Shown here piece after piece: positions 1 through 21,784 of a stretch of 22,271 bases of DNA. The DNA lies in the IMG/VR virus record IMGVR_UViG_3300008117_000997, positions 1 to 22,271 of that record, one strand, 5' to 3'. Position 1 is the stretch's first letter, and every line of letters starts with the position of its first letter. The notes under the pieces were generated by a model. The model searched no databases. It was not told the origin of the DNA and worked only from the letters and a program-made list of their open reading frames with translations. This stretch comes from a virus. Both the position numbers and the translations under genes were made by a program.

Positions 1-252
1 TAACAACCGCGTTTTACCAAATTGCATAAAACCAGTGTAAAACAATGACTTTAGCCTTGTTACTCTTGAGTAACTTAGCAAAACTGGCAGCCGTTGAGCC
101 TGCTGCATCGGTAAACCGTGAGAATCAAGAAACGGCAAAACACTCAAAAAACCCTTATTTTACGCTGTTTTTTGGGTGCTTGTAATTGTTTAAACTCTAT
201 GTCACACTTTCACCAGTGGCGCACACGGCGCCCAACGACTGGAGGCAAGACA
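1..252 (+). promoter_or_regulatory. Leader region upstream of the plus-strand gene block
   Basis: No convincing gene is seen here. The stretch holds a perfect inverted repeat at 59-74 (GTTACTC-TT-GAGTAAC). It also has a 12-bp hairpin pairing 141-152 with 167-178, one G-T wobble included, around an AT-rich 14-nt loop. A copy of GTTTAAAC lies at 188-195 and a GC-rich 5-bp hairpin at 218-232, just ahead of the Shine-Dalgarno at 241-245. I could not fix a promoter: no clear -35/-10 pair with 16-18 nt spacing stands out. The position before a long plus-strand gene train makes it the likely control region. Confidence 0.45.
59..74. repeat. Perfect 16-bp inverted repeat, operator candidate
   Basis: GTTACTC (59-65) and GAGTAAC (68-74) are perfect reverse complements around a TT centre. 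The short centre suits a dimeric DNA-binding protein better than an RNA hairpin. I saw no second copy in the window, so it differs from the widespread GTTTAAAC palindrome. Its role as an operator for the plus-strand block is inference. Confidence 0.4.
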
Positions 253-420
253 ATGGCACGACAAGCAGCAACACCAACTGCAACCAAGCAGACAACCCGT
301 TTAAAAAAGGTTCTCTGCGAGGTTGACGGTTACATAGCAAGAATCTCTCGCTCAACCCTTATCACCTACGGCAGCCCAATCTGCCCTGCATGCAACCAAC
401 CAATGAGAGAGGCTCGCTAA
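253..420 (+). CDS. Small zinc-ribbon protein (SprT C-terminal-like)
   Basis: This 55-residue protein has a basic N-terminus. A single Cys follows (VLCEVDGYIARIS), and a CPAC knuckle lies near the C-terminus (PICPACNQPM). The pattern, a lone Cys then 'GYIxRxS' then CPxCN, resembles the zinc ribbon that ends SprT-like proteins, but the metallopeptidase part is absent. The start at 253 is chosen because GGAGG at 241-245 stands 7 nt ahead of the ATG; an in-frame extension to 118 has no such signal. The amidoligase gene follows after 2 nt, suggesting co-translation. The exact function is unknown. Confidence 0.7.
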   Translation: MARQAATPTATKQTTRLKKVLCEVDGYIARISRSTLITYGSPICPACNQPMREAR

Positions 421-422
421 TC

Positions 423-1226
423 ATGACAACTTTTGGCATGGAATTTGAGGTTCAAGGAATCTCACCACAACGCGCTGCGGAGCGTTTAAACGCTGCGGGG
501 ATTGTCTGCAATCTGCCACGCGCTCAACATGAAACCGACAACAACTGGAAAGCCGTTTATGACGGCAGCGTGACCAACGGTGCGGAGGTTGTTAGCCCAA
601 TCCTCAACCCTGCCCGTTTAAACGAGGCTCATAAAGTCACCAAGGCGCTCAAAAATGCAGGCGCACGGGTTGACCGTGCCACGGGCTTTCATGTCCACAT
701 CGGTTTAAACGCTTTTGATGCAGGCATGGGAGCGCCCGTTAGCCGTAACGCGGAGAATCTCGCCCGTTTTATCCTCAACTATTACTCCATGCACTCCGCA
801 ATCGCAGCGCTTGTTGCGCCTAGCCGTTTAAACAACCGCTATTGCAGAATTCTCACCCGTGATTTTGCGGAGCGCCAAGCCTCCCACAGTTTAAACGACA
901 ACATGGGCGCGTTTAACGGTGACCGCTACACCTCGCTCAATCTTGAATCCATGCACCGCCACGGCACCGTGGAAATCCGCCTACACCAAGGCACGCTCAA
1001 CGGTGTTAAGGCAATCGCATGGAGCCAGTTTATTGCGGGCTTAATCCAAGCCAGCGTGCAGGGCGTGGATTTAACAACCCAAGAACACCTCAACCCATGG
1101 AGCAACCCAACCGCGCCAAGCGTTGAGAATTCTGCCCTAGTCATTGACACGCTCGTGTCAGGCAATCACCTCAACGCCAGCACGGGGGACTGGCTCAAGG
1201 GTCGCGCAGCCCGTCTAAACGGGTAA
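423..1226 (+). CDS. Putative amidoligase (Amidoligase_2-like carboxylate-amine ligase)
   Basis: This 267-residue protein matches the glutamine-synthetase-fold amidoligase family, enzymes expected to use ATP to join a carboxylate to an amine. Visible motifs are FGMEFEVQG at residues 4-12, NWKAVYDGSV at 41-50, GAEVVSPIL at 53-61, TGFHVHIGL at 87-95 and HGTVEIRLHQGTLNG at 180-194. Together they carry the acidic, basic and His residues typical of the active site. An AGAGAGG stretch precedes the ATG at 423. Five in-frame GTTTAAAC copies each encode Leu-Asn. A class-II glutamine amidotransferase lies 700 bp downstream on the same strand; the family is known to pair with such ammonia donors. The substrate is unknown. 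Confidence 0.82.
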   Translation: MTTFGMEFEVQGISPQRAAERLNAAGIVCNLPRAQHETDNNWKAVYDGSVTNGAEVVSPILNPARLNEAHKVTKALKNAGARVDRATGFHVHIGLNAFDAGMGAPVSRNAENLARFILNYYSMHSAIAALVAPSRLNNRYCRILTRDFAERQASHSLNDNMGAFNGDRYTSLNLESMHRHGTVEIRLHQGTLNGVKAIAWSQFIAGLIQASVQGVDLTTQEHLNPWSNPTAPSVENSALVIDTLVSGNHLNASTGDWLKGRAARLNG

Positions 1227-1235
1227 GCGCGGGCA

Positions 1236-1282
1236 GCCTGCCCCTAGTGGGCTAAGCGTGGGTGCAATCCCCACGGCAGGCA
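1236..1282 (+). ncRNA. tRNA-like RNA fold lacking an anticodon arm
   Basis: GCCTGCC (1236-1242) pairs perfectly with GGCAGGC (1275-1281) as a 7-bp acceptor-like stem. A T-arm is directly adjacent: GTGGG (1258-1262), the 7-nt loop TGCAATC and CCCAC (1270-1274). A 3-bp D-arm-like hairpin TAG-TGGG-CTA lies at 1245-1254, and A1282 would be the discriminator. No anticodon arm and no CCA are present (CGAA follows). A competing hairpin GGGCA-GCC-TGCCC (1231-1243) would use the 5' acceptor strand. Alternatives are a degenerate tRNA, a regulatory leader, or a reduced cobalamin-riboswitch-like core, since the T-loop and the later CGCCAC vaguely recall that class. Confidence 0.5.
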
Positions 1283-1283
1283 C

Positions 1284-1310
1284 GAACGCCACGGAAAGAC
1301 CGTTGCGTTT
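1284..1310 (+). other. Strong hairpin after the tRNA-like element
   Basis: AACGC (1285-1289) pairs with GCGTT (1305-1309). After one C/T mismatch, ACGG (1291-1294) pairs with CCGT (1300-1303) around the loop AAAGA. The 3' strand overlaps the GTTTAAAC copy at 1307-1314. No T-tract follows, so it is not a classical terminator. It may form one structured leader with the preceding element, upstream of the tiny ORFs. Confidence 0.5.
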
Positions 1311-1332
1311 AAACAGAAACGGACTGGAAACC

Positions 1333-1398: not shown

Positions 1399-1405
1399 GG
1401 AATTT

Positions 1406-1570
1406 GTGGAGAATAAAATCGCGGAAGCCATGAAGCAACGCCCAAGCGATTACACCGCCAGCGTTGGAACGCTACTCATTGCCCAACTCTGCAACGGGTG
1501 GGGATTAGATGCGTATTATCCAATCGCCAAGGAAATCATGGAACGCCTAGACGAGAGCGCAGGTGTTTAA
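1406..1570 (+). CDS. Hypothetical small protein (54 aa)
   Basis: This is an open frame with a GTG start at 1406, preceded by GAGGAA at 1397-1402; spacing is short, and an ATG at 1430 is the alternative. The product is a small, probably helical soluble protein with the segment TASVGTLLIAQLCNGWG. Its stop codon TAA lies inside the GTTTAAAC copy at 1565, and the next gene starts 2 nt later, giving the junction GTTTAAACATG. The family is not recognised. Confidence 0.55.
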   Translation: MENKIAEAMKQRPSDYTASVGTLLIAQLCNGWGLDAYYPIAKEIMERLDESAGV

Positions 1571-1572
1571 AC

Positions 1573-1677
1573 ATGTACGAAAATCTGCTCCCGTGGTGGC
1601 TCGTTTGGATAGACGGGCGCGTGTTGTTACTGCTCACGCTCACCGTTTACTTCGCACGAAAGGCGTTTAAACGATGA
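1573..1677 (+). CDS. Tiny membrane protein (34 aa)
   Basis: A short protein begins MYENLLPWWLVWIDGR and continues with one hydrophobic segment (VLLLLTLTVYFA, about residues 18-29) and a basic C-terminus (RKAFKR). This topology fits a single-span membrane peptide. It starts 2 nt after the previous stop and overlaps the next start as ATGA (1674-1677), so all three look translationally coupled. The FKR end is encoded by the GTTTAAAC copy at 1665. Function is unknown; a holin or host-membrane effector is possible but unsupported. Confidence 0.55.
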   Translation: MYENLLPWWLVWIDGRVLLLLTLTVYFARKAFKR

Positions 1678-1871
1678 GCCTATCACGCCAAGAGATTGCA
1701 GCGTGGAACCAATACGGGAAACGCTACGACAAGAACGACAACTGTTTAAACTGCGGGGAAAATTTCTACGCAGCGCACCAACCAACATGCCCGTGGTCAG
1801 ATGATTGCGAGCGTTTAAACACCGTCATGTGTGGCGATTGTTTGCGTACCGATTGCAAAGGTTGCAGATAA
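1674..1871 (+). CDS. Cysteine-rich zinc-binding small protein
   Basis: This 65-residue protein has eight Cys. CLNCG comes near the middle, a lone Cys in TCPWSDDC and its partner follow, and CGDC, C and C sit near the end (MCGDCLRTDCKGCR). The spacing suggests two zinc knuckles. The start overlaps the upstream stop (ATGA). Two GTTTAAAC copies (1744, 1813) are read as CLNC and ERLN, one of them inside a Cys knuckle. No family is recognised. Phage mini-proteins of this type often bind host transcription or translation factors, but nothing here proves that. Confidence 0.65.
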   Translation: MSLSRQEIAAWNQYGKRYDKNDNCLNCGENFYAAHQPTCPWSDDCERLNTVMCGDCLRTDCKGCR

Positions 1872-1892: not shown

Positions 1893-1932
1893 TCACCCAT
1901 TAACCGAACACCTACAGACTGGAGAAAAATAA

Positions 1933-2787
1933 ATGTGCGGAATCGCAGGCTATTGCTTAGACCCTAAGCATTACTCACGCATTACAACATCAGACCTCGC
2001 AGGGCAGATGCTCTACGACATTGAACACCGTGGACAACACGCCACGGGCGCTGCATGGATTAACCCACGCAACGGCAGGCGTGTAATCAGCAAGGCAGCA
2101 GCCAGCGCGACAAAGTTCGTGCCAAAGGCAGGCGAGCGCCTATGTGCAGGCGCAACCACTGCAATCTTGCACACGCGTTGGGCTACACAAGGCTCACCAA
2201 CTAACAACAACAACAACCACCCAATCCCACGCGGTAAAATCGTACTCACACACAACGGACACATCAGCAACGATACCGAATTGTTTAAACAACTAGGTGT
2301 GCCTCGTGTCGGTCAGGTAGATTCAGAGGCTGCTGCTGCGCTCATTGCGTTTGCAGACGGCAAGCCTTGGGAAATCCTCGCCGAGTTATACGGCACGGCA
2401 GCGCTCGCATGGATTGGGCAGCATGACCCACGAACCCTGCACCTTGCACGCGTTAACTCATCACCGTTGTGGATAGCGCAAGCCAACACAGGCTCCCTAT
2501 TCTACGGCTCAACGCAGCAGACAGTAGAGAACGCAGCCATTATGAGCGACTGCGAAATTGACTGGCTGCATGAGGCAGCAGAGGGTGAGTATTTCAAAGT
2601 GCGTGACGGTCACATCACCGAGTATCAGACTTTCACGCCTCGCAAATACGAACCAACAAATTGGTGGAGCAACTATCGCCCCGCCTCATCGTATGCCACG
2701 GACTTGGATTATCTAGGTCATTACAACACACGCAAGGCAGACCGCTATGCAAAGTGGTGGGAGGATAAGGAAGAACTACCCTTCTAA
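1933..2787 (+). CDS. Class-II glutamine amidotransferase (Ntn-hydrolase)
   Basis: This 284-residue protein starts MCGIAGYCLD, placing the nucleophile Cys2 at the mature N-terminus after Met removal. It carries HRGQHATG (32-39), HTRWATQG (80-87, with the glutamine-binding Arg), THNGHISN (106-113, the oxyanion Asn-Gly) and VDSEAAAAL (129-137). These mark the glutaminase domain of the PurF/GlmS/AsnB class, which frees ammonia from glutamine. No synthetase domain follows; the C-terminal 80 residues are rich in Trp and Tyr. The amidoligase upstream is the likely acceptor partner. GACTGGAG at 1917-1924 supplies the ribosome site 8 nt ahead of ATG. A terminator follows. Confidence 0.9.
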   Translation: MCGIAGYCLDPKHYSRITTSDLAGQMLYDIEHRGQHATGAAWINPRNGRRVISKAAASATKFVPKAGERLCAGATTAILHTRWATQGSPTNNNNNHPIPRGKIVLTHNGHISNDTELFKQLGVPRVGQVDSEAAAALIAFADGKPWEILAELYGTAALAWIGQHDPRTLHLARVNSSPLWIAQANTGSLFYGSTQQTVENAAIMSDCEIDWLHEAAEGEYFKVRDGHITEYQTFTPRKYEPTNWWSNYRPASSYATDLDYLGHYNTRKADRYAKWWEDKEELPF

Positions 2788-2789
2788 TA

Positions 2790-2944
2790 GTTTAAACAGA
2801 GAGAACCCCTGCTGCGGCGGGGGTTTTTCTTTTGTTTAAACATCGTTAGCACTCTGGTGCTGTGACTGCCAGAAATTATACCAACTGTTTAAACACCAGA
2901 CATGTCACGCTACCACAAAGTAACTTCTTGTCAAGCGTTTAAAC
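2790..2944. repeat. Noncoding array of four GTTTAAAC sites at about 50-bp spacing
   Basis: Copies begin at 2790, 2834, 2887 and 2937, so start-to-start distances are 44, 53 and 50 bp. All are noncoding, which excludes codon usage as their cause. The first two bracket the terminator at 2804-2833. The rest of the 2788-3019 gap is AT-rich from 2950 on, and holds TTGACT at 2984-2989 without a well-spaced -10. The gap is a good candidate for a control region or protein-loading site. Confidence 0.75.
2804..2833 (+). terminator. Rho-independent terminator after the amidotransferase gene
   Basis: AACCCCTGC (2804-2812) pairs with GCGGGGGTT (2817-2825), one T-G wobble included, around the loop TGCG. 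The run TTTTTCTTTT follows. It lies 17 nt after the amidotransferase stop. The T-run runs straight into GTTTAAAC (2834-2841), an arrangement repeated at the terminator near 12842-12898. Confidence 0.9.
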
Positions 2945-3422: not shown

Positions 3423-3581
3423 ATGAGCAGCCTATGGAAAGCAGAAATCACAGACGACATGGTGAAACACCTAAGTCTTGACCAACGCAAAGAATTGTTT
3501 AAACAACTTGACGATGCCGTTGAACGAATAGCCTCGGAGGTTGAGGTAGGCAGGGAGTTTAAACATGAGGTTCAAAAATGA
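3423..3581 (+). CDS. Hypothetical acidic helical protein (52 aa)
   Basis: Begins directly after the previous stop (TAAATG). The product is a short, charged helix-forming protein (MSSLWKAEITDDMVKHLSLD at the start). It has two in-frame GTTTAAAC copies read as Phe-Lys (ELFKQL and REFKHE). The same LFKQL string appears in the amidotransferase and the DUF3846-like protein, always encoded by the palindrome. The stop overlaps the next start by 4 nt (ATGA). Function unknown. Confidence 0.55.
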   Translation: MSSLWKAEITDDMVKHLSLDQRKELFKQLDDAVERIASEVEVGREFKHEVQK

Positions 3582-3688
3582 GAGAGCGTTGTTCAGATTG
3601 TGGAGAGTATCGCAACTCATCAAACTTGTTCAGTACAGAACGCGGAGTAATCTGCGGGAAATGTATGAAAGAGTTTAAACATGACTAA
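3578..3688 (+). CDS. Zinc-ribbon microprotein (36 aa)
   Basis: MRERCSDCGEYRNSSNLFST is followed by GVICGKCMKEF, giving two CxxC knuckles 18 residues apart in a classic minimal zinc ribbon. It overlaps both neighbours by a few bases (ATGA upstream, 8 nt downstream). The final FKHD is encoded across the GTTTAAAC copy at 3673. Another frame over the same bases (3565-3678) is also open, but this one has the meaningful Cys pattern. Probably a nucleic-acid or protein-binding adaptor. Confidence 0.6.
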   Translation: MRERCSDCGEYRNSSNLFSTERGVICGKCMKEFKHD

Positions 3689-3908
3689 ACAATTCTCTTA
3701 CGCAATTTATTTTGACGGAACCAAATGGCAGTTAGACATTGACACGGAGGAACAAGCCTTTCCAAATGGAACTGTCTATGATACCGAAACCAAATCGTGG
3801 GACTATGCCTATCAGGGTGACGGTAAATTTATTGAGGGTGCGCAAGAAGCAGACAAACAACTGCAAGACATGCTCAACAAAATGAATCAAGAAAGGTCAG
3901 GTGTTTAA
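3681..3908 (+). CDS. Hypothetical protein (75 aa)
   Basis: A Trp- and Tyr-rich N-terminal half (YAIYFDGTKWQLDIDTEE, WDYAYQGDGKFIEG) suggests a small beta-sheet domain. It is followed by a Gln/Lys-rich helix. The ATG comes directly after a GTTTAAAC copy, and the stop codon TAA is inside the next copy (3903), so the gene is framed by two palindromes. No family recognised. Confidence 0.65.
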   Translation: MTKQFSYAIYFDGTKWQLDIDTEEQAFPNGTVYDTETKSWDYAYQGDGKFIEGAQEADKQLQDMLNKMNQERSGV

Positions 3909-3910
3909 AC

Positions 3911-4047: not shown

Positions 4048-4182
4048 ATGAGTTACAAGCATGGAGAGAACCACGAGAACTGCTGGCGCGATTGCGACAA
4101 GCACACCGAAGCGGAGTGTTTTGTTTTTGATTGCCCCAATAATGCAGCGCCTCAATACGACTGCGAGGTGGCACATGTTTAA
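4048..4182 (+). CDS. Cys/His-rich microprotein (44 aa)
   Basis: The protein is rich in Cys (five) and His (six): MSYKHGENHENCWRDCDKHT, then ECFVFDCP and YDCEVAHV. The mix suggests metal binding, though spacing is not that of a canonical zinc ribbon. It begins 2 nt after the previous stop. It ends with TAA inside the GTTTAAAC copy at 4177, which simultaneously encodes the start of the next gene. Confidence 0.5.
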   Translation: MSYKHGENHENCWRDCDKHTEAECFVFDCPNNAAPQYDCEVAHV

Positions 4183-4339
4183 ACGCAAAGTATGGAAAGC
4201 GCCACGAATAAAGAACCCTGCTAAGTGCATAGACTGTAACGATGTCTACGAATTAGACGGACTTAACTTAGACCTACGGTGTAGCGATTGCGTAGACCAA
4301 TGGTTAATAGACGACATGGAAATGGAGGAAAGCGAGTGA
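4175..4339 (+). CDS. Zinc-ribbon microprotein (54 aa)
   Basis: Starts ATGTTTAAACG (MFKRKVWKAP), with the palindrome immediately after the start codon; the transglycosylase gene at 5033 begins the same way. CIDCNDVYELDGLNLD and CSDC form a two-knuckle zinc ribbon about 20 residues apart, followed by an acidic tail (DDMEMEESE). It overlaps the previous gene by 8 nt and the next by GTGA. It resembles the ribbon at 3578-3688, so the two may be diverged paralogues. Confidence 0.6.
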   Translation: MFKRKVWKAPRIKNPAKCIDCNDVYELDGLNLDLRCSDCVDQWLIDDMEMEESE

Positions 4340-4606: not shown

Positions 4607-5033
4607 GAATCCTGAAAAAATTATGAAAGATGTGATAAACGCCTTCGTTGAATACAACAATTCAAATGCGGTGGAACAATCACCAGTGCGAGGAGTAGTT
4701 ATCCGACCTAATGGAACGCATACCGAAGGGTTGTTTAAACAACTAGCAGATTACCAAAGTGCTATTGACGGTTGGATTACTGCGGTGCGTTTATACGATT
4801 ACAACGGACAAGAGATTGCGTGTGCCTATGTAGATGATGAGGGGTTGTTAAAGAACCTGCCATTAAATCCTATGGCGAGCGCCTTATCTTTCTTGTTTGG
4901 TAACACACCACACCTTGTGGGTAACGCGGTGATTGTTGGGCGCTCAGATGATGAGGGTTACGACACAGACCTGCCCGAATTTATCCTTACGCTGGTGCGA
5001 AACATCAGTGCTAAACAGGAGAAGGAAGCATAA
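4599..5033 (+). CDS. DUF3846-like phage protein (144 aa)
   Basis: A core of RGVVIRPNGTHTEG (31-44), ADYQSAIDGWITAVRL (50-65), IACAYVDDEGLLKNLPLNPMA (73-93) and LVGNAVIVG (106-114) matches the pattern of the DUF3846 family of small phage and plasmid proteins, whose function is not established. The run 'VVIxPxG ... GxI ... DEEGxLKxLPxN ... GxxVVVG' is the recognisable part. Its stop overlaps the transglycosylase start as TAATG, after an AGGAGAAGGA ribosome site. Confidence 0.65.
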   Translation: MTKNPEKIMKDVINAFVEYNNSNAVEQSPVRGVVIRPNGTHTEGLFKQLADYQSAIDGWITAVRLYDYNGQEIACAYVDDEGLLKNLPLNPMASALSFLFGNTPHLVGNAVIVGRSDDEGYDTDLPEFILTLVRNISAKQEKEA

Positions 5034-5473
5034 TGTTTAAACGATTAGTCGCTATCTTCCTCATTGTTACTGCATCGGTAGCAATAGACGACAGGTTTTT
5101 TGATAAAGACCATGTGCCTCTCACACCATTGGTTAATGATGGCAAAGTGGCAGGCACAGTGGTTGCCTTTTACGAGAACGAATACCAACGCTATGCAGTA
5201 GACATGCTTACACAAATGGGCAAACTAGAACAGTGGACTTGCTTGTACACACTATGGACACGCGAGAGTAACTGGAATCCACGCTCACTTAACCGTAAGT
5301 CAGGTGCCTATGGCATTGCACAATTCATGCCAGCAACATGGAAACTCGTAGGGTTTAAACGAACTGATGACGGGTTCGTACAAGTGGAAGCAGGGCTTGC
5401 GTACATACAAAGAAAATACGGAGGCAACATCTGCAAAGCGCTCGGTTCAAATCTATCAAGAGGGTGGTACTAA
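5033..5473 (+). CDS. Secreted lytic-transglycosylase/Rpf-like muralytic enzyme
   Basis: The N-terminus MFKRLVAIFLIVTASVA is a signal peptide or signal-anchor. The C-terminal half has a lysozyme-like fold signature. LYTLWTRESNWNPRS (71-85) includes the likely catalytic Glu78, GAYGIAQFMPATWK (91-104) follows, and GLAYIQRKYGGNICKAL (121-137) and a GWY end complete the domain. Two Cys (70, 134) could form a disulfide outside the cell. Enzymes of this type cut peptidoglycan glycan strands. It lies far from the holin and M15 endolysin of block 4, so it may act early, locally or on the outside rather than in final lysis. Confidence 0.82.
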   Translation: MFKRLVAIFLIVTASVAIDDRFFDKDHVPLTPLVNDGKVAGTVVAFYENEYQRYAVDMLTQMGKLEQWTCLYTLWTRESNWNPRSLNRKSGAYGIAQFMPATWKLVGFKRTDDGFVQVEAGLAYIQRKYGGNICKALGSNLSRGWY

Positions 5474-5658
5474 TGACCGAATACCAAGAACTAATAGAGG
5501 GATTGCGTAATCACCTCATACTCAGTGGGCTAACCTACAACGCAGAGGTACCCACTCAGCCAGTAATCATCAGACCAGTACGCGTTGAAATGCTGGCAGC
5601 CACAGTCATGGAGTATTTAAATGCAGCAGGATACGCAAATACAACCAAGGTTTCATAG
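5473..5658 (+). CDS. Hypothetical protein (61 aa)
   Basis: The ATG at 5473 overlaps the transglycosylase stop (TAATG). The product begins MTEYQELIEGLRNHLILSG and ends with a helix (VEMLAATVMEYLNAAGYANT). It has no Cys and no membrane segment. Its 3' end overlaps the WhiB start by 38 nt and carries that gene's ribosome site. Function unknown. Confidence 0.55.
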   Translation: MTEYQELIEGLRNHLILSGLTYNAEVPTQPVIIRPVRVEMLAATVMEYLNAAGYANTTKVS

Positions 5659-5980
5659 AATCAGAAAGGTGCTGCGTTTAAACAGCCGTGTTTACTACAC
5701 GCTTGTTTACAATCCACGCAACTTCACAGATGCTAAATGCTACGGTGTACCTACCGAAGTATTTTATCCACCACAAGATAAGTTTTCTCCCGATGAGGAA
5801 CGCTACATCAGGAATAGAATCTGCGGAGGCTGCCCAGTAATTGAAGCCTGCGGGGAGTGGGGACTAGCCCACGAACGCTACGGTATTTGGGGTGGCATGA
5901 CACCTGCAATGCGTGAAAGAGAACGCAAGAAACGCAAGTGGGGATTAACCGAGCCTGCGTTGAGCAACAATCAAAGATAG
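5621..5980 (+). CDS. WhiB-family iron-sulfur transcription regulator
   Basis: This 119-residue protein has four conserved Cys. AKCYG comes first; after an FYPP-type segment and RYIRNRICGGCPVIEAC follow CxxC and a fourth Cys. The WhiB signature GIWGGM and a basic C-terminal stretch (RERERKKRKWG) come next. WhiB proteins bind a [4Fe-4S] cluster and act with the sigma factor on actinobacterial promoters; phage copies such as mycobacteriophage TM4 WhiB interfere with host WhiB genes. GGAG at 5610-5613 supports the ATG at 5621; a GTG at 5669 is an alternative. The family indicates an actinobacterial host. It closes the plus-strand block at a terminator. Confidence 0.92.
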   Translation: MQQDTQIQPRFHRIRKVLRLNSRVYYTLVYNPRNFTDAKCYGVPTEVFYPPQDKFSPDEERYIRNRICGGCPVIEACGEWGLAHERYGIWGGMTPAMRERERKKRKWGLTEPALSNNQR

Positions 5981-6039: not shown

Positions 6040-6216
6040 TTATGAAGCCGATTTATCACCAGTAATAATACGAATAGCCCAGTCAAGTCCAGCGTTTAAA
6101 CCCTTAGACCACTCATCTTTTTCTGTGATTTTAGAGTACTCAATTTTCTGTACAAACTTTTCTATGAACGCCTTATGAAGAAGGTTAAAGCGCTCAATAA
6201 AATCATCATCTGTCAT
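6040..6216 (-). CDS. Hypothetical small helical protein (58 aa)
   Basis: A minus-strand frame starts at 6216 (MTDDDFIERFNLLHKAFIEK) and continues with ITEKDEWSKGLNAGLDWAIR, ending beside the terminator. The start overlaps the kinase stop as ATGA, which supports it as the last gene of the block. The LN in KGLNAG is encoded by a GTTTAAAC copy. The pattern 'WxxGLxxAxxW/I' is common in small phage proteins of unknown function. Confidence 0.65.
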   Translation of the reverse strand: MTDDDFIERFNLLHKAFIEKFVQKIEYSKITEKDEWSKGLNAGLDWAIRIITGDKSAS

Positions 6217-6749
6217 AGTTTAAAAACATTGTGCATTAGCATGAACACTTCTTCAGCCAAATCATCAAGAGTCCCATCGTTGTATAGCACTCGTTTAAAC
6301 ATGTGATTATCCATAGCGCGTTCACTTACATGGTCATTGACTGCTGCATGGTTGTGTCTGTTTATACGCCACACTTCCCCGCCACGCTCCTCAATCATGC
6401 GTGCTTCATTAGGGAAACGAACATCAGGTATGACTATGCGCTCGCCTTCATTGACTTGATTAAACAAACGCCACACCCATACATCTTGGTGGATTTGTTG
6501 GCGACCAACTTCAGTACCCATAACCTGTAATAAACGGCGCACTTCATCTTTAGCCTTGGCTACTTCCCAACCGTACATCTGCACTATCTCGTTTAAACGG
6601 TGACCATCATGCAAGATTGGATTCAAAGCAATCAACGATTCACGAATACCATCAGCAAACGCCATGCGTTTAAACCCGTAGTTCAATACGAGCAACTCAG
6701 CAACTGTATCCTTACCGCTTCGGGCATAACCGCTTAATCCAATAATCAC
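6213..6749 (-). CDS. Deoxynucleoside monophosphate kinase
   Basis: This 178-residue P-loop kinase has GYARSGKDT (7-15) at the N-terminus. Its other marks are a KDEVRRLLQVMGTEVGRQ segment in the middle, QDVWVWRL, and VIPDVRFPNEARMIEE, the pattern of phage dNMP kinases such as T4 gene 1 product. These phosphorylate dNMPs to feed replication, and some act on modified nucleotides. The GTG start overlaps the upstream stop (GTGA), with AGGAGGAGC as ribosome site. Three GTTTAAAC copies lie in the gene, two read FKR and one RLN. Confidence 0.85.
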   Translation of the reverse strand: MIIGLSGYARSGKDTVAELLVLNYGFKRMAFADGIRESLIALNPILHDGHRLNEIVQMYGWEVAKAKDEVRRLLQVMGTEVGRQQIHQDVWVWRLFNQVNEGERIVIPDVRFPNEARMIEERGGEVWRINRHNHAAVNDHVSERAMDNHMFKRVLYNDGTLDDLAEEVFMLMHNVFKL

Positions 6750-7426
6750 TCTTGCTCCTCCTGATTTCTAATTTCTGCTCGTGCTTCTGCATTACTACGA
6801 ACGCGCCTACGACCACGCCATACTGGTGCTTCGCCACCTAACCTGTCTTGCAGTTTAACTATCGCACGCTTGACACGCTTGCGCATTGCTTCCTCCGTGG
6901 TTCCATAAGATTCAGCAAGCGCACCAAACTCCATACCACCGTTGGCATAACGCATGCGCAGTAAGTCTTGGTCTGCCTTGTTTAAACGGTCAAGCCCTGC
7001 TGCAACATCTGACAGCAAAGCAACGCGGTTACCACCTTCGGAAGGCTTAGCACTACGAGAAATGTATTCACTACTCATGTCTGGTGTATCAGTCCAACCT
7101 TGGTGTGTCCATACATCACGCAATAGTTCATGTAACACCTCGTGTGTGTAATAAAAACTATCGTTGATTGGTGAGCGAGATAAATGCGAGCGCTCTTTGG
7201 CAACATACTTTTGCGCTTCGTTATAGAAAGTTTTGCGCAGTTTAAACTTCAGGCTTTCTTCATCAGTCCACTGCTCTATCTTGTGCCAGTGTTCTAATGC
7301 CCACAAGGATAAGTGCTGGTACAAATCATCAGTGGTTACGATGCCACGATGCATACGATTAGCACGGGTTGCAACTTGACGGGCTACCCCGTAAATAGTT
7401 TCCCAAACTTTATCTTGGCTATCCAT
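6746..7426 (-). CDS. RNA polymerase sigma-factor-like protein
   Basis: This 226-residue protein has a helical N-terminal half containing TTDDLYQHLSLWALEHW (31-47), reminiscent of a sigma region-2 entry. A C-terminal sigma region 4 lies at about 143-196 (GLDRLNKADQDLLRMRYANG, then a helix-turn-helix FGALAESYGTTEEAMRKRVKR). The tail is very basic then acidic (WRGRRRVRSNAEARAEIRNQ). Similar proteins in actinobacteriophages are labelled sigma factors. It may steer host RNA polymerase to phage promoters. It overlaps the neighbouring genes by a few bases on both sides. Confidence 0.72.
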   Translation of the reverse strand: MDSQDKVWETIYGVARQVATRANRMHRGIVTTDDLYQHLSLWALEHWHKIEQWTDEESLKFKLRKTFYNEAQKYVAKERSHLSRSPINDSFYYTHEVLHELLRDVWTHQGWTDTPDMSSEYISRSAKPSEGGNRVALLSDVAAGLDRLNKADQDLLRMRYANGGMEFGALAESYGTTEEAMRKRVKRAIVKLQDRLGGEAPVWRGRRRVRSNAEARAEIRNQEEQE

Positions 7427-7826: not shown

Positions 7827-7829
7827 TGT

Positions 7830-8450
7830 TTAAACACCCACTCGTTTGCGCAATCCCTCTGCTCCTTCAGCAAGGAACACATCGTTGACATCGCAGTTGT
7901 CAGGCATGAACACGGGGAATACATTGTCCAATTCTCGTGAGAGGGTCTTAGCCATCTCTTTACCTGCGTTGTCACCATCACAAAACAACATAATCTTTTC
8001 CCAATCCGCAAGGACACGGGAGTAAAACGGTTTCCAGTTGTTTGCCCCAGGCAAACCAACCGCAGCAAAGCCCACTTGCGTGGCAATGATGGTATCTAGT
8101 TCACCTTCACAAATCACAAGCATGTCAGCATCTTTATCCAATGCTTGAACATTGTAAATGTGAGTGCTTGCTCCTGGTCTTGATAAATATTTTGGTCCAC
8201 TATCATTGTTTAAACTGCGGAAACGGATGTCAACTACACCTGATGGAGTTAAATAAGGGATAGCCAACTTACCAAGGTAAGGTTCGTGTCCCGCTTCAGG
8301 ATTCGCCACGAAGCCGAGGCGGAACATACGCGCTGTCGCCTCTGTTATACCGCGACCCGTCAGGTACGGCAGCGCCTCGCTTAGGTTTCCTTCGTAGTTC
8401 TCCGTTGCTTTCGCCAGTAATTCTCTCTGCGATTTTGAGAGCCTCGCCAT
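7830..8450 (-). CDS. DNA primase, TOPRIM half of a split primase
   Basis: This 206-residue protein has a linker domain (SEALPYLTGRGITEATARMF, 24-43; HEPYLGKLAIPYL) followed by a TOPRIM fold. That fold shows ICEGELDTI (113-121, with Glu115) and LFCDGDNAGKE (155-165, the DxD pair). This is the catalytic half of a DnaG-like primase that makes RNA primers. The zinc-binding half is the separate gene at 8296-8673, which overlaps it by 155 nt in another frame. AAGGAG 6-7 nt ahead of the ATG at 8450, inside the CHC2 gene, shows independent initiation. The stop lies in the GTTTAAAC copy at 7828. Confidence 0.85.
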   Translation of the reverse strand: MARLSKSQRELLAKATENYEGNLSEALPYLTGRGITEATARMFRLGFVANPEAGHEPYLGKLAIPYLTPSGVVDIRFRSLNNDSGPKYLSRPGASTHIYNVQALDKDADMLVICEGELDTIIATQVGFAAVGLPGANNWKPFYSRVLADWEKIMLFCDGDNAGKEMAKTLSRELDNVFPVFMPDNCDVNDVFLAEGAEGLRKRVGV

Positions 8451-8673
8451 AGGTAACTCCTTCTCGTTTCATAATAAGTGAATACACATCGCCTGCCATG
8501 TCGCAAGCAAAACATCTAAAGCCACCGTTGTCTATGTTTAAACGAGCCGACTTTACATGGTCATTGTGGAAGGCGCAACGCACTGATTGCCAACCTCCAC
8601 GATTGGTAGAGATTACAAATCCGTAATGCTCAAGTACTTTAACGATGTCATGCTTAGAGGTTGGCGAGGACAT
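8296..8673 (-). CDS. DNA primase, CHC2 zinc-finger half
   Basis: This 125-residue protein carries the CHC2 zinc finger of DnaG primases. VRCAFHNDHVKSARLN (31-46, C33 and H36) and GFRCFACDMAGDVYSLIM (51-68, C54 and C57) supply the four ligands that recognise template DNA. The tail (KPKRG ... SAYVPPRLRGES) is basic and Pro-rich. The start at 8673 is chosen because it overlaps the upstream stop by only 20 nt; in-frame ATGs at 8694 and 8706 are alternatives. The last 50 codons overlap the TOPRIM gene in another frame. A domain split like this is seen in other actinobacteriophages. Confidence 0.82.
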   Translation of the reverse strand: MSSPTSKHDIVKVLEHYGFVISTNRGGWQSVRCAFHNDHVKSARLNIDNGGFRCFACDMAGDVYSLIMKREGVTYGEALKIAERITGESNGELRRKPKRGAAVPDGSRYNRGDSAYVPPRLRGES

Positions 8674-9016
8674 CACTGAGTTTCTGAACGACATACGCTT
8701 CACCAACTCCCTTGTTGCTTGCCTTGATAATTACCAATGGCGTAGGTGCAACGGCTAGTCGTTTAGCAACTCGGTAGTTCTCTGCTTCAATCTCTGCTTC
8801 TCGTATCCACCCACTTAAGTCAATGCGCCCATCACGGCGTGGAGCCTTTGCTTCTACAACATAGGCACCGTTAACCCCTGGAACATACACATCGCCCACA
8901 TCATTACGACCTGCACGAGGCAAACGCTGTGCGTTTAAACCTTGCTCCATAAACCAATCGGCTAAGTCAATCTCCCATGCTGCGCCTCTACGCTTGTTGC
9001 TCTTTTGCTGGCTCAT
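8654..9016 (-). CDS. Holliday-junction-resolvase-like PD-(D/E)XK nuclease
   Basis: This 120-residue protein has KRRGAAWEIDLADWF (8-22, Glu15), RLPRAGRNDVGDVYV (31-45, Asp42) and AYVVEAKAPRR (51-61, E55-x-K57). That is the ordered active-site set of archaeal-type Holliday junction resolvases and phage relatives. A late helix with SGWIREAEIEAENY would pack on the core. It is likely to process recombination or replication intermediates. AAAGGAGAGAGC precedes the ATG at 9016, which overlaps the glycosyltransferase gene by 29 nt. Confidence 0.8.
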   Translation of the reverse strand: MSQQKSNKRRGAAWEIDLADWFMEQGLNAQRLPRAGRNDVGDVYVPGVNGAYVVEAKAPRRDGRIDLSGWIREAEIEAENYRVAKRLAVAPTPLVIIKASNKGVGEAYVVQKLSDVLANL

Positions 9017-9725
9017 GCTCTCTCCTTTCGGCTGCTTCTACTGCTGCCCAATACAAGTTGTAGTAAGCATCGTCAAATGAAAATCGTTTCATGTGCTTGG
9101 CAATCACACCAGTGTGTGCATGTACGGGTATACCCGCAGCCTTGACCTTACGGAAGAAGGCAATGTCCTCACCAATAAACTTCTCACCACGCTCGTTATT
9201 CTCACCAAACCAAAAGTCATCAGGAAACTTCTCGTTTAAACCTTTGAGTACGCTCTTGTGCATTAGCACTAATCCCATGCCAGCGTTGTCAACCTTTACT
9301 ACTTGGTTCTTAGGTAAAGGGTGAAGATACTTAACCTCGTATTGGTTTCCAGTTTCATTAAATACACATGGCATAGGTTGCATCAAAGAACTTTCCATGC
9401 CCTTGCTAATGAAGTAAACACCGCTAACTACTGGGCGTGCCACTTTGTCAGCCGTATCCCATAGGGTCTTGAGCATCTCCTTAGTTAGCACAATGTCGGA
9501 GTCAATCCATAACGCCCAGTCAGTGTTAACCTTCTGCCACATCTCTATGGCTGCTTGGCGTTGGCGTGCTATCTGATTGCCTTGTACACGGATAGCGTTA
9601 TTAACTGGCACACCTATTGTTGGAGCATGGATAAGTGTGTATACCAAACCCTCAGTAAACTTTCCATCAGTGTTACCGTTGTCGCACCAAATGATAGATA
9701 AAGTTTCTTTATTACTATGCGCCAT
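8988..9725 (-). CDS. GT-A family glycosyltransferase
   Basis: This 245-residue enzyme has a Rossmann-type start (LSIIWCDNGNT), QGNQIARQRQAAIEMW (48-63) and the metal-binding DxD motif in WALWIDSDIVLTKE (70-83). A conserved VDNAGMGLVLMHKSVLKGL segment and a late GEDIAFFRKVKAAG and HAHTGVIAKH follow. It should transfer a sugar from a nucleotide donor; the acceptor could be DNA, a phage structural protein or the host envelope. The ATG at 9725 is preferred, with AAAAGGA upstream and a short overlap with the previous gene. No other sugar-pathway gene is in the window. Confidence 0.82.
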   Translation of the reverse strand: MAHSNKETLSIIWCDNGNTDGKFTEGLVYTLIHAPTIGVPVNNAIRVQGNQIARQRQAAIEMWQKVNTDWALWIDSDIVLTKEMLKTLWDTADKVARPVVSGVYFISKGMESSLMQPMPCVFNETGNQYEVKYLHPLPKNQVVKVDNAGMGLVLMHKSVLKGLNEKFPDDFWFGENNERGEKFIGEDIAFFRKVKAAGIPVHAHTGVIAKHMKRFSFDDAYYNLYWAAVEAAERREHEPAKEQQA

Positions 9726-10089
9726 GGTTATGCATCCTTTTCTCGGAGCGGTCAATAATGGTCATTGCGTTCTCGGCTAACTCTTTAAAGTTCTCCGACA
9801 TAAGAATTAGTTTTTCGGCGACTTCTTCTCTGCACTCTGCTCCGTGTTCTTCCCTGAGATGAGCAGCAAGTTGCGCCACATAGTCAGCAAACTGGAGTGA
9901 CTCAAGCCAGATTGCAGATGGGTTGAAGATTTTGTTTGTTGCTTCATCAACATATTCCACAAAGTTTGGAAGTTCATTGAGTAGAGTTTCCTTCAACTCC
10001 TTCGGAAGTTTCGCCTGCTGGATTGCTTCCTCCACCATCTCTGGTGTAATTGACTGTTCCCCCCGAAAGAAGCGTTTTGTATTCTTCAT
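9715..10089 (-). CDS. Hypothetical helical protein (124 aa)
   Basis: This is a charged, largely helical protein (ITPEMVEEAIQQAKLPKELK, then FADYVAQLAAHLREEHGAEC and MSENFKELAENAMTIIDRSE). AAGGAA about 7 nt before the ATG at 10089 supports this start. In that case its first 39 codons overlap the next upstream gene in another frame. A later start would remove the overlap but lacks a better signal. Function unknown. Confidence 0.6.
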   Translation of the reverse strand: MKNTKRFFRGEQSITPEMVEEAIQQAKLPKELKETLLNELPNFVEYVDEATNKIFNPSAIWLESLQFADYVAQLAAHLREEHGAECREEVAEKLILMSENFKELAENAMTIIDRSEKRMHNHGA

Positions 10090-12890: not shown

Positions 12891-12907
12891 GTTTAAACAG
12901 TATTAAG

Positions 12908-13831: not shown

Positions 13832-13849
13832 GTTTTTATCCTTAAATGT

Positions 13850-15820
13850 TTAAACGACAGTACGAGCGATAATCTGGAGAATTCCACCGTAGCCAGAGTA
13901 GTTTCCGTTAGGTGGTGTGGTGCGGGTGAAAGACACCTGCTCAATCACTGCCTCAATAGGTTCTCCGTCAGCAGTGAAATCTTGGATGATAATGGTTTCG
14001 CCTTGGGCTTCCATAGCCTCAAGCGCTTGCAGTCTACCTAGTGCGTATCCTTGGAATCCCATGATGTTCTTATTGCGGTCACGCTCCGAATCAAAACAAA
14101 AGACAGGGATTTGAATAACGCGAGCGCGGGTAGGAGTAGGCAGAGCCTTAACAGAGTAACCATAGATAACAGCACCAGTCGTGGCAGTTGTATCGTTACG
14201 ATTGAGGCGGAACTTAAACTGCGCTTCAACTGAAACATCGCCAAAAACCGATGAGAGGTCGTAGTCATAATCAGATGTACTCCCTTGTGCTACTGTACGG
14301 AAGGCTGTGTCTGTTCCATTTTGAACACGAAAAATATCAATGTCACCTTGCAGTGTTCCTTCGGTGCGTAGTTTTAAACGCTTCCATGCTTTGTTCTCAA
14401 GTGTTTCATAACGGATGATACCTGTGGTGAACTCACCTGATTCAACAAGTTCGGTGGCATGCTCAATAAACAAACCATCACCGTTTACACAGAAAGCAAT
14501 TCTTCCATCACCAAGGTTGGCAACGCCTTCTACTTTACCTGTTGTGGATTCTGCATAAACATCTGTTGCATAGGCATAGGTGCCATTAGACAATGGTTGT
14601 GATAAGTCAACTCGGTATACGCCAGAGTATCCACTAATACCAGAGTCAACTCCAGCAATAATGAATTTACTATAAGCGCTCATCTTGTAGATGCCAAGAT
14701 TTGATTCAAATATAAGCGGTCCATAAGACAAGTCGCCAACCTCATTGGCTATAGCAATTCGTAATCCTCTGCTGGTACCGATAGCCACATAGGTGCCAAG
14801 GTATCCAAGCAAGCCAGTAATGTTTTCTCCACTAGGTAGTGTGATTACGCTGGTCATTGTGTTTAAAGTTCCATCATTAGCAACGGTAATTTTATACACA
14901 TTGCCTTGTTCGCCAGAAAATCCACCAACATAAATAGCAGCGCCAGCCTCGGTTACAGCCCTAAAGGTGTAGCCAGTAGGCAGCGTGCTGCTTCCATTAA
15001 CAGCAGTAAGTGTGCTGAGGTTAATTGATGAGCCAGTGTTTCTGTTTATTTCATAAACAAATGTGCTTTGGTTTGTGTCATGAAAGGCTAAGATAAAACG
15101 ATTTTTAACATAGGCAATAGTTGCAGTTTCTGCGTTTGCTGTATTGATTGCATAGTCTTGATGCAGTGCAGGAGTATTCTCGTCAAATGAGTAGCGCCAC
15201 ACTTTGGTTGGTGTAACCATCATCAAGTCATTACCGCCCATGGCTACTGCAATAATGTTCTCCGTAAGTGAAGTGTTGTTGACAATAGTAGTTTCTGAGT
15301 AGTCACTTACCCTGATACGCACAACGCGTGCAGTTTCAGTAGATGCGTACTTGACCAGTATTAGATACTCAACGCCACCGATAACGGTATTGAATACACG
15401 GCTATCTCCAGTAAATGCTTCTTGCAAGAAGGTTCTGCGTAGTAGTGAGATTTGTCCTGGAGTCCAAGGATTAACACCAACAGATGAACTGAAGCGGAAG
15501 CGTGCTTCCTCAAGACTTCCAACAATTGGCTCTTGATAAGTACTGCCTGCTCCAAGGTGAAAAGACGATTGGCTTCTAATCCAATAGCCAGAGCCAGATA
15601 GTGATTGCTCGCCTGGGTCGCGTAGTTGGTCTACACGCTGTGTGCGAAACTCTGCAGTCTGTCTACGGTACGGAGTTTGGTCTGTGATGGCAGCAATAAA
15701 CGGCATGCCACCAATAGCAAAATCAAATTTGTATGTAGTCGGGTCGTAATAGGTTGAGATGCGACCAGATAAGTCAATGACAACGCGTTCAGAAATATCG
15801 GGTGGTCTGCTATCTACCAT
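13850..15820 (-). CDS. Large tail/minor tail protein (656 aa)
   Basis: The N-terminus (ISERVVIDLSGRISTYYDPT, then FDFAIGGMPFIAAITDQTPY) looks like a virion attachment domain. The middle, roughly residues 100-470, is a series of beta-strand units with Gly-aromatic turns (for example GVEYLILVKYAST, NRFILAFHDT, GAAIYVGGFSG), suggesting a beta-propeller. The C-terminus (RVIQIPVFCFDSERDRNKNI to the end) has a distinct alpha/beta character. Such proteins form the tail tip or host-contact part of actinobacteriophages. GGAG lies ahead of the ATG. The stop sits in GTTTAAAC at 13848. Confidence 0.65.
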   Translation of the reverse strand: MVDSRPPDISERVVIDLSGRISTYYDPTTYKFDFAIGGMPFIAAITDQTPYRRQTAEFRTQRVDQLRDPGEQSLSGSGYWIRSQSSFHLGAGSTYQEPIVGSLEEARFRFSSSVGVNPWTPGQISLLRRTFLQEAFTGDSRVFNTVIGGVEYLILVKYASTETARVVRIRVSDYSETTIVNNTSLTENIIAVAMGGNDLMMVTPTKVWRYSFDENTPALHQDYAINTANAETATIAYVKNRFILAFHDTNQSTFVYEINRNTGSSINLSTLTAVNGSSTLPTGYTFRAVTEAGAAIYVGGFSGEQGNVYKITVANDGTLNTMTSVITLPSGENITGLLGYLGTYVAIGTSRGLRIAIANEVGDLSYGPLIFESNLGIYKMSAYSKFIIAGVDSGISGYSGVYRVDLSQPLSNGTYAYATDVYAESTTGKVEGVANLGDGRIAFCVNGDGLFIEHATELVESGEFTTGIIRYETLENKAWKRLKLRTEGTLQGDIDIFRVQNGTDTAFRTVAQGSTSDYDYDLSSVFGDVSVEAQFKFRLNRNDTTATTGAVIYGYSVKALPTPTRARVIQIPVFCFDSERDRNKNIMGFQGYALGRLQALEAMEAQGETIIIQDFTADGEPIEAVIEQVSFTRTTPPNGNYSGYGGILQIIARTVV

Positions 15821-15891
15821 GTCGCTCCTTGTTTTTAGGTATGAAAAATGAGCAGTTTAAACACATGCTCAGGTGTAGACTTTAAGAGTCT

Positions 15892-20610: not shown

Positions 20611-20618
20611 TTTCTACC

Positions 20619-21512
20619 TTATCTTTGATAGTGCGAACGGATTGGATGTTGACGGCGTTGGTTATTCGCCACTTCGTTTAAACGCTGTGTGTAAATGTTG
20701 TACAAGAATCTGGCAGCGTTTTGTCCAGAACCTGTTGGGCGCACGCCATCAAGCATGTCTGCTGCTGCAGACTGAGGACCAAGGCGTGATGGGTCCAAGA
20801 ACGAAATCATGCGGAAGGCTGCGCCGTAGATGGCAACATCCTCCGAATATGATGGGAAGCCTGTGACTGTTTCATAGTCATCACTATCATTAACAAGCAG
20901 TGTTGGGCGCTTGCTGTATGACACATGTACTGTTTGTCCAGGCACAATCTCTGAATAGATAGATAGGCTCTTTGTGGTAGCAAAGGCATCTGAATCTGCA
21001 ACTCTATCTAGTTGCCACGCACGAGCAGGAAACCACTCTTTTGATGGACCTACTGTTGAATAAGTTACAGATAGGACATTTTGAACAGCAGCAGGAATTT
21101 GGTATGAATACTGCGCTGCTACATAATCAAAGTCGTATGTGCCTAGGGCAAAGATGCTTGGGTACATGGCATCAATTGTGTTGTTAATAGCATTTTTAAT
21201 TTCATTGCGTGGGAACAATGGAGCCATTGTTACCTTAGCGTTACTTGAGTGAGCAGCAGCAGTTGTACCGCGCTGCGCTCTACCCCAAGGGGCAAGCGTT
21301 AAAGTGTTGGCTACATTATCCGTAGTGTTAACGAATACAATTTCATCATCAATCTGTACATATCCACGACCAATAACTGAAGCATCATAAACACTTAAGG
21401 TTGTTGTTGTGCTGTTAGCACTGCTAACTAACCATGTGGCAGACTCTGTATTTTCTGTATAGCCATGCAATACCGCTTCAACGCGGTCTGCTAGTTGTCC
21501 AAAGGTACTCAT
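20619..21512 (-). CDS. Virion connector/tail-completion-like protein (297 aa)
   Basis: The N-terminal part (FGQLADRVEAVLHGYTENTE) is followed by a beta domain (VQIDDEIVFVNTTD). Next comes a longer helical and mixed region with PRNEIKNAINNTIDAMYPS, and a C-terminus with RFLYNIYTQRLNEVANNQRR. The layout of 'EIxxAINxTIxAMYP' plus 'DVxIYGAAFRM' recalls head-tail connector or tail-completion proteins of phages. The assignment is by style only. GGAG stands ahead of the ATG, which overlaps the previous stop (ATGA). The RLNE is encoded by a GTTTAAAC copy. Confidence 0.5.
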   Translation of the reverse strand: MSTFGQLADRVEAVLHGYTENTESATWLVSSANSTTTTLSVYDASVIGRGYVQIDDEIVFVNTTDNVANTLTLAPWGRAQRGTTAAAHSSNAKVTMAPLFPRNEIKNAINNTIDAMYPSIFALGTYDFDYVAAQYSYQIPAAVQNVLSVTYSTVGPSKEWFPARAWQLDRVADSDAFATTKSLSIYSEIVPGQTVHVSYSKRPTLLVNDSDDYETVTGFPSYSEDVAIYGAAFRMISFLDPSRLGPQSAAADMLDGVRPTGSGQNAARFLYNIYTQRLNEVANNQRRQHPIRSHYQR

Positions 21513-21784
21513 AGGTTAATGCTCCTTAACGCAGCCACGGCTGATAGTCCAGATGTGCCAGCAAGTTCATTGCAGATGGCGTTTAAACCTTTATAGTTGT
21601 TTGGCTGGCGTGTAGAACTAGCCTTGTAATTAAGGGCAGCAATAAGTCCTAAGCCATTTGTACCAGCCCATGCGTTAGCAGCACCCTGTGGTGCTTCATA
21701 GACTGTATAAACGGGGTATGTTCCGCCATTGGCTAGACGGTTAAGTTCGCCCGTAAGGGTGCTTCCTGCTACTCCTGTTGCCAT
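21509..21784 (-). CDS. Hypothetical virion-region protein (91 aa)
   Basis: An Ala/Gly/Asn-rich protein (MATGVAGSTLTGELNRLANG, then ANAWAGTNGLGLIAALNYKA and GLNAICNELAGTSGLSAVAA) with repeated 'G-L-x-A-(I/A)-x-N' turns that may be two related halves. It starts in a TAATG overlap with the upstream gene and ends in ATGA with the next. A structural role is inferred from position. The KGLNAI string is encoded by GTTTAAAC at 21581. Confidence 0.65.
   Translation of the reverse strand: MATGVAGSTLTGELNRLANGGTYPVYTVYEAPQGAANAWAGTNGLGLIAALNYKASSTRQPNNYKGLNAICNELAGTSGLSAVAALRSINL

Follow-up and report, generated by a model that had tools for sequence, protein, structure and literature searches.

Dispersed copies of an 8-bp palindrome as probable binding sites of a small SprT-family zinc-ribbon protein in a virus record

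The locus and its repeated word

The virus record IMGVR_UViG_3300008117_000997, analyzed here over its whole length of 22,271 nt (the window), is a 22-kb sequence that is probably a fragment. Its genes have relatives among amidoligases, glutamine amidotransferases, transglycosylases, WhiB proteins, dNMP kinases, sigma-like factors, two-piece primases, RusA-like resolvases, DnaB-like helicases and Cas4-like exonucleases, and the first gene of its early block encodes a 55-residue zinc-ribbon protein, a domain found by profile in early blocks. Scattered over the window are 41 exact copies of the palindrome GTTTAAAC, with start positions from 188 to 21581 (Table 1). We propose that this word is probably the DNA-binding site of the ribbon protein, a member of the phage SprT family that would regulate its own gene, with the dispersed copies serving as operators that hinder transcription.

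The count of 41 is that of the original prediction and compares with 0.72 copies expected under a Markov model of order 2. Expectations of 2.3 at order 3 and 35.5 at order 6 climb because the models come to absorb the word itself, and among 11,734 over-represented canonical 8-mers in the window GTTTAAAC ranks first. Near variants are almost nil: GTTTAAA is followed by A, G or T in 2, 1 and 0 cases, and TTTAAAC is preceded by A, C or T in 0, 0 and 1. Equal enrichment of AT-centred octamers had been named beforehand as the sign of composition bias; other AT-centred palindromes show no enrichment in the window (ATTTAAAT 1, CTTTAAAG 1, TTTTAAAA 0), so that base composition does not explain the word. 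As anticipated, most copies fall within 9 kb: 36 of the 41 lie before position 9242, dense over the early genes and sparse over the structural genes. By our own gene calls, 18 copies are read as Leu-Asn, 11 as Phe-Lys and 12 are noncoding or at a gene edge, close but not identical to the earlier split of 17 Leu-Asn, 12 Phe-Lys, 4 stop and 8 noncoding.

Sites are also conserved beyond their surroundings. In seven relatives, 17–25 of 22–31 alignable GTTTAAAC sites are intact (77–96%), compared with 22–34% of control 8-mers within 60 bp of the sites. Given the counts, the scarcity of neighbour words and this excess of conservation over controls, the word is under selection as DNA. The earlier reading of a DNA-level signal thus stands, with sites kept independently of what surrounds them and a word that changes between lineages. 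The statement that flanks are not conserved is largely borne out, except that in the site-rich relatives L005 and L012 the core tends weakly to be preceded by Y and followed by R (YGTTTAAACR). Composition or codon bias has nothing beyond a moderate A+T content in its favour and can be discounted as an explanation of negligible probability, since neighbour words are scarce, conservation far exceeds that of the flanks, and copies occur in two sense frames and in noncoding DNA.

The ribbon protein of the window is a ribbon-only form of the SprT-like/zinc-ribbon family, with neither a SprT domain nor an HExxH motif. Its C-terminal ribbon is accompanied by an arm of the KQxTR type, and Arthrobacter phage Reedo encodes a 'SprT-like protease' whose C-terminus is 45% identical to it over 44 residues.

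Table 1. Copies of the 8-bp word and associated features in the window
Feature	Position	Strand	Remark
TTGTAA, -35-like element	180..185	+	just before promoter-region site; putative; -10 less clear
GTTTAAAC site	188..195		regulator's own promoter region; proposed autoregulatory operator
GGAGG, Shine-Dalgarno of regulator	241..245	+	read in sequence
Candidate regulator, 55-residue zinc-ribbon protein	253..417	+	KQTTRL arm, CPAC; ATG 253, stop 418-420
GTTTAAAC site	484..491		
GTTTAAAC site	616..623		
GTTTAAAC site	703..710		
GTTTAAAC site	826..833		
GTTTAAAC site	889..896		
GTTTAAAC site	1307..1314		
GTTTAAAC site	1565..1572		then ATG
GTTTAAAC site	1665..1672		
GTTTAAAC site	1744..1751		
GTTTAAAC site	1813..1820		
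GTTTAAAC site	2283..2290		
GTTTAAAC site	2790..2797		
GTTTAAAC site	2834..2841		
GTTTAAAC site	2887..2894		
GTTTAAAC site	2937..2944		
GTTTAAAC site	3497..3504		
GTTTAAAC site	3557..3564		then ATG
GTTTAAAC site	3673..3680		adjoins ATG of 3681-3908
GTTTAAAC site	3903..3910		then ATG
GTTTAAAC site	4177..4184		
GTTTAAAC site	4733..4740		
GTTTAAAC site	5035..5042		overlapping ATG of 5033-5473
GTTTAAAC site	5353..5360		
WhiB	5621-5980		rival candidate for reader of the word
GTTTAAAC site	5676..5683		
GTTTAAAC site	6094..6101		
GTTTAAAC site	6293..6300		
GTTTAAAC site	6591..6598		
GTTTAAAC site	6668..6675		
GTTTAAAC site	6980..6987		
GTTTAAAC site	7240..7247		
GTTTAAAC site	7828..7835		
GTTTAAAC site	8208..8215		
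GTTTAAAC site	8536..8543		
GTTTAAAC site	8933..8940		
GTTTAAAC site	9234..9241		
GTTTAAAC site	12891..12898		
GTTTAAAC site	13848..13855		
GTTTAAAC site	15855..15862		
GTTTAAAC site	20676..20683		
GTTTAAAC site	21581..21588		

Lineage-specific words and the early block

By DnaB, the closest cultured relatives of the window are two ct2KA10 records (50%), followed by mycobacteriophages (35% for Nerujay of cluster A) and Streptomyces phages (35–37%); scans of genome contigs for relatives of the DnaB and of the SprT-like alignment returned none. This kinship and the WhiB gene suggest Actinobacteria as the host group. Word usage was surveyed in 81 sequences, namely the window and the best 80 of 251 relatives by DnaB, with full records used where they were fetched. 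Three related words, alignable as TGTYTWAAS, were found: GTTTAAAC (class A), TGTCTTAAG (class B) and GTCTAAAC (class C). Class A accounts for 62 sequences, class B (TGTCTTAA(G)) for 12 and class C for 3, with one sequence of both A and C type and 3 unclear; twelve class A records carry 20–47 copies each. In B phages the product of the first gene beside the terminase is a SprT-like metalloprotease (PF10263, HExxH) whose C-terminal part is a zinc ribbon, with a KPKGRNxN-type arm in front of it. The same gene in A and C phages encodes either a degenerate SprT domain joined to a ribbon or the ribbon by itself, and the arm is KQ[ST]TRL.

Gene trees were examined for the 30 clusters held by G001 and present in at least 12 records, and changes of word class were counted without the three unlabelled sequences and the mixed L056. 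The fewest possible changes were obtained for dNMP kinase, WhiB (2 changes, the minimum, in the window's clade), transglycosylase (full records) and amidoligase (A and C phages only). The transglycosylase tree requires 3 changes once all rows are included, and the remaining clusters require 2–8, mostly 3–8. Structural genes of class A phages hold 63 copies of their own word with 6.5 expected, 10 of the B word (8.5 expected) and 1 of the C word (5.5 expected); those of class B hold 23 of their own (6.4), 5 of the A word (3.4) and 5 of the C word (2.9). Replication genes of class A contain 47 copies of the A word with 3.1 expected. Because word class travels with the early block and structural genes are enriched in their own word, the reader of the word is probably an early-block product, and on the whole the sites appear to adapt to something encoded there. 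Two records, G008 (class B) and G009 (class A), which comprise loci L097-L098 and L107-L108, are about 97% identical over three long stretches, yet their early blocks cannot be aligned and their main words differ. This pattern suggests recent recombination that exchanged the regulator along with the dense sites, and that the two can move as one block.

Two further readings are affected by these trees. A replication or segregation mark, among the functions originally put forward, is less likely, since word class tracks the early block and not the replication genes. The word might instead be read by a host protein and reflect host range, as its variation between lineages would allow, and HIP1 of cyanobacteria is a host-wide word of this kind. 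That structural-gene trees disagree with word class (2–8 changes where 1 or 2 suffice), and that the word family recurs across phages of five host genera, each with a KQxTR ribbon, makes a host reader highly improbable.

Early blocks, delimited by the genes for the transglycosylase and the large terminase, were scored as containing the word at a density of at least 1 per kb. In 79 non-redundant blocks from 88 rows, the word is present in 70 of the 72 with a ribbon gene and in none of the 7 without (Fisher 1.2e-8), an association weakened by the fetching of 60 of the 88 rows with the ribbon protein itself. Among blocks fetched with ct2KA10-like DnaB, 5 of 6 with a ribbon and 0 of 7 without have the word; in all 15 blocks fetched by means of DnaB from the window's clade, ribbon and word are both present. 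The arm follows the word as well: TRL goes with GTTTAAAC or GTCTAAAC (A or C) in 10 of 10 blocks, and [GS]R[ND][KT]N with GTCTTAAG (B) in 60 of 60. An automatic contrast of open reading frame (ORF) content gave a list led by antisense or overlapping ORFs, its top cluster being present in 61 of 70 word-bearing and 2 of 9 word-less blocks, and was not used.

Other early-block genes could be the reader, above all WhiB, or, in phages of the AZ/EH type, a 'DNA binding protein' encoded near the SprT-like gene. WhiB is a known transcription-factor family, and in the window's clade it co-segregates perfectly with word class. In the distant ct2KA10-like clade, however, which was found with DnaB, the word accompanies the ribbon gene and not WhiB: loci L203 and L204 have WhiB and no word, and WhiB was not found in the word-bearing loci L185, L202 and L212. 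No WhiB is named in the six cultured annotations listed in full, and phages Bachaco and Kieran each have a 'DNA binding protein' gene but lack the word. We therefore consider a reader of this kind quite unlikely, and consider it very probable that the ribbon reads the word, presumably by binding it.

Further candidates were rejected. The sigma factor tree needs 6 changes, and near-identical sigma factors go with different words; DnaB, primase, the RusA-like resolvase and Cas4 were ruled out by their gene trees. The dNMP kinase is not of a DNA-binding family and was not found in word-bearing ct2KA10-like loci. No ordinary or cluster A-type repressor was named by PHROGs among 20 ORFs of the window, a scan outside which five small early ORFs fell; Pfam named no ordinary repressor in 10 proteins, and none was named among 10 further proteins of the window and its relatives.

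Cultured phages with SprT-like genes

Matches to the window ribbon among cultured phages of Arthrobacter and Microbacterium, in genes annotated as 'SprT-like protease', provided an out-of-sample test. Six cultured phages fetched from ribbon/SprT-like matches were searched for over-represented 8-mers without a preset word; in 14 further cultured phages GTGTAAAC was counted in all and words were ranked in 13. GTGTAAAC is the top 8-mer in all nine ranked actinophage genomes that have a KQxTR ribbon (Liebe, Honk, Reedo, UtzChips, DrSierra, SuMoo, Powerpuff, JackieB and Percival), at 14–41 copies compared with 0.03–0.20 expected. LazerLemon, whose arm reads KKQGTR, has 40 copies. With its flanks the word becomes CGTGTAAACG, which recalls the YGTTTAAACR of the window. 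The SprT-like gene is preceded by a copy in Honk, Reedo, UtzChips, DrSierra, SuMoo, Powerpuff, JackieB and LazerLemon, and in Liebe a copy precedes a likely earlier start of that gene; in Percival it is just inside the annotated gene, upstream of the start suggested by homologues. Sites not wholly within annotated genes amount to 14 of 28 in Reedo and 17 of 32 in Honk, where chance would give about 10%.

The palindrome of the window itself recurs in proteobacterial phages with a KQxTR arm. In the parts examined, R5C has 8 copies of GTTTAAAC (0.02 expected), Alexa 8 (0.98), PT1 6 (0.71) and Persinger 4 (0.09), and in Alexa, PT1 and Persinger one copy is just upstream of the SprT-like gene. Phages that carry both this word family and a KQxTR ribbon span five host genera: Arthrobacter, Microbacterium, Streptomyces, Dinoroseobacter and Acinetobacter.

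Didgeridoo, a Microbacterium phage (L391), has lost the protease domain in parallel: its 53-residue homologue, annotated as hypothetical, is ribbon-only and its arm is KSRSGR, and GTNTAAAC does not occur in the part examined. Actinoplanes phage phiAsp2 (L418-L419) has a SprT-like gene with another arm and a different dispersed word, AAGTGTCA, which includes a TTGACA-like element and occurs 14 times with 0.2 expected.

Action of the sites and comparison with known systems

The site in the regulator's promoter region bears on function. In all 18 class A contexts inspected, the site nearest to the start of the ribbon gene has a -35-like TTGA or TTGT element at most 10 nt upstream, with a -10-like hexamer about 18 bp further on in some (L012, L023, L058), and the single C context has its site adjoining TTGACA. 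As the product of the first early-block gene, the ribbon protein would be made first and bind the word; given the copy in the promoter region of its gene, it probably keeps its own synthesis in check. The remaining 40 copies would be dispersed operators, where bound protein would hinder transcription much as cluster A stoperators do, through an unrelated protein. The small early protein would then be an autoregulated silencer with dozens of sites over the early genes. Chances are about even that the ribbon protein acts by repression or roadblocking, and roadblocking is a guess, since most other sites are not promoter-linked. Of the functions originally put forward, the dimeric repressor or silencer is the best fit as far as repression or silencing goes; strict dimerization need not be assumed, because GTCTAAAC and GTGTAAAC are not palindromes.

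The ribbon might alternatively tether the SprT protease to the dispersed sites, where it would clear proteins such as host silencers, crosslinks or stalled complexes and would not be a repressor. In keeping with this, HExxH is invariant in nine aligned B-type proteins and present in those of the AZ/EH type (HELVH, HELIH), and the best match of a B-type model in PDB is SPRTN (6mdw), albeit weak (E 0.05). But the window and its nearest kin keep the sites with the protease domain lost, HExxH is missing from one B-type row, L295, and the site that the gene has in its promoter region speaks for regulation, which together make tethering rather unlikely. For the regulation proposed here the protease would be dispensable, since the window's lineage has lost it.

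Action on RNA, as leader or translation control, is suggested by B-type sites, which are oriented with transcription (733 sense and 145 antisense; 394 and 138 without a nearby Shine-Dalgarno) and directly precede a Shine-Dalgarno-like sequence in 339 of the 733 sense cases. C-type sites show no such orientation, and the word of the window is palindromic and mostly intragenic, with the regulator's copy beside a -35-like element and so probably upstream of the transcript. Moreover, L166 has no ribbon and yet shows enrichment of AGACAGGAGA-type words, so that the Shine-Dalgarno link may be a mutational convenience. We regard RNA action as very unlikely. Sites of the window's class show no general association with starts (53 of 365 fall between -60 and +30, where random placement gives 15%), although some A-type sites touch a start codon (14 versus 3.4 in the bin at -5).

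Several results weigh against the ribbon as reader and regulator. B-type ribbons contain four cysteines and the window ribbon three, and PDB searches yielded no significant fold match (mean predicted local distance difference test score of the ribbon model, 73). Loci L223 and L304 encode a ribbon in a complete block that lacks the word, and an unbiased search of these blocks gave no clear replacement. In the window's clade, dNMP kinase shares with WhiB its co-segregation with the word. Nor are the word classes clean, since the C word GTCTAAAC is also enriched in class A replication genes (16 observed, 1.4 expected). PT1 and Persinger hold only 6 and 4 copies, at ranks 42 and 25, and R5C has none just upstream of its gene. 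GTNTAAAC is absent from the examined parts of Bachaco, Bernstein, Kieran, Didgeridoo, MW2 and phiAsp2 (the whole MW2 record has one GTGTAAAC). These six have SprT-like relatives with other arms or no ribbon, so the SprT-like family as a whole does not imply the word. Most sites other than the promoter-region copy lack TTGA[ACT] just upstream (9 and 5 of 178 by strand; random 3.9%). Finally, AZ/EH-type phages have other 'DNA binding protein' annotations close to the SprT-like gene.

Powerpuff is described in PMC8758107 as forming stable lysogens immune to itself, Lego and YesChef; the same source presents AZ and EH phages as having no identifiable repressor and the SprT-like protease as common to them, and the words 'motif' and 'repeat' do not occur in its main text. 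Our analysis supplies a named candidate for the repressor of Powerpuff and its cluster that was reported there as unidentified. That the SprT-like protein confers immunity in AZ/EH phages is possible rather than probable, and we hold it to that level because of the other annotated DNA-binding genes near the SprT-like gene.

In PMC6550527, cluster A stoperators (L5, Bxb1) are described as 20–30 dispersed sites per genome, including sites within promoters, with a 13-bp asymmetric core and a lineage-specific consensus that changes with the regulator. The sites reported here resemble them in having many dispersed copies of one consensus (41 in the window, 20–47 in class A), a lineage-specific word and a site within a promoter region. 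B-type words are also oriented with transcription, as stoperators are; that of the window is a palindrome. Cluster A phages share the replication gene order Cas4/exonuclease, DnaB, primase and sigma, and the DnaB of Nerujay is the 35% match given above. The core here is only 8 bp, palindromic in the window and with weak Y/R flanks, and the proposed regulator consists of a zinc ribbon, to which a SprT domain may or may not be joined. The Nerujay repressor has no similarity to the Reedo SprT-like/ribbon protein and gives a weak, below-cut-off helix-turn-helix match. L5 stoperators, which the original prediction had offered as an analogue, are therefore apt in function (dispersed and lineage-specific) and not in protein, sequence or site length.

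Other likenesses are more partial. HIP1 is a short, highly iterated palindrome in coding and noncoding DNA, as here; it has another sequence, occurs in bacterial genomes, and to our knowledge has no linked reader gene. Cluster K mycobacteriophages reportedly carry start-associated sequences, a repeated motif at starts, which B-type sites resemble in often preceding start codons; window-class sites differ in showing no such association overall. With SprT/Spartan (SPRTN, PF10263), B-type relatives share HExxH and the domain match, above cut-off in four of five scanned, and cultured relatives the annotation as SprT-like protease; the window protein lacks the protease domain. In the open-licence literature searched, we found no sequence-specific DNA sites for the SprT family, no mention of these words in phages and no repressor role for a SprT-like/ribbon protein.

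We define a SprT/zinc-ribbon phage family by a C-terminal ribbon with a KQxTR arm, a dispersed GTNTAAAC word and a copy of it in the regulator's promoter region; the window shows all three. Dispersed operators are known to us from one repressor family, of helix-turn-helix fold. Here the same architecture appears paired with an unrelated and very small zinc-ribbon protein and with proteins labelled in databases as proteases, which hints at a role for a gene that has relatives in 170 cultured phage records and would allow the binding word to be predicted from the protein arm. We tentatively raise the broader idea, which we think has somewhat less than an even chance, that SprT-family zinc-ribbon proteins, with or without protease, may form a new class of sequence-specific regulators in phages of Actinobacteria and Proteobacteria. 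They would act through dozens of dispersed operators whose word the arm chooses, KQxTR reading GTNTAAAC and GRNxN reading GTCTTAAG, and would include the missing AZ/EH immunity repressor.

Minor observations concern the relatives and the remaining genes. TATATA is strongly enriched in L223 and L304; L166, without a ribbon, and L311, with both ribbon and word, show its enrichment too. Words of the AGACAGGAGA type are enriched in L223 and L304 as in L166, and this Shine-Dalgarno context is enriched in ct2KA10-like loci, L166 among them, whether or not the ribbon gene is present. Copies of GTCTAAAC in class A replication genes occupy few conserved places, judging by many duplicate contexts. The C-terminus of the degenerate SprT/ribbon protein at L103:13355-13900 has a weak, below-cut-off match to the YnfU zinc-binding family. 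The amidoligase and glutamine amidotransferase genes lie at 390-1226 and 1933-2787 of the window; in the 81-sequence set, which includes many fragmentary loci, tblastn found them in A and C phages and in 0 B phages. A glycosyltransferase gene (8988-9755) lies within the replication gene order, and relatives carry one too. The 76.6-kb record L117-L120 (G016) is about twice the usual length for the group and may be either a fusion or a larger phage.

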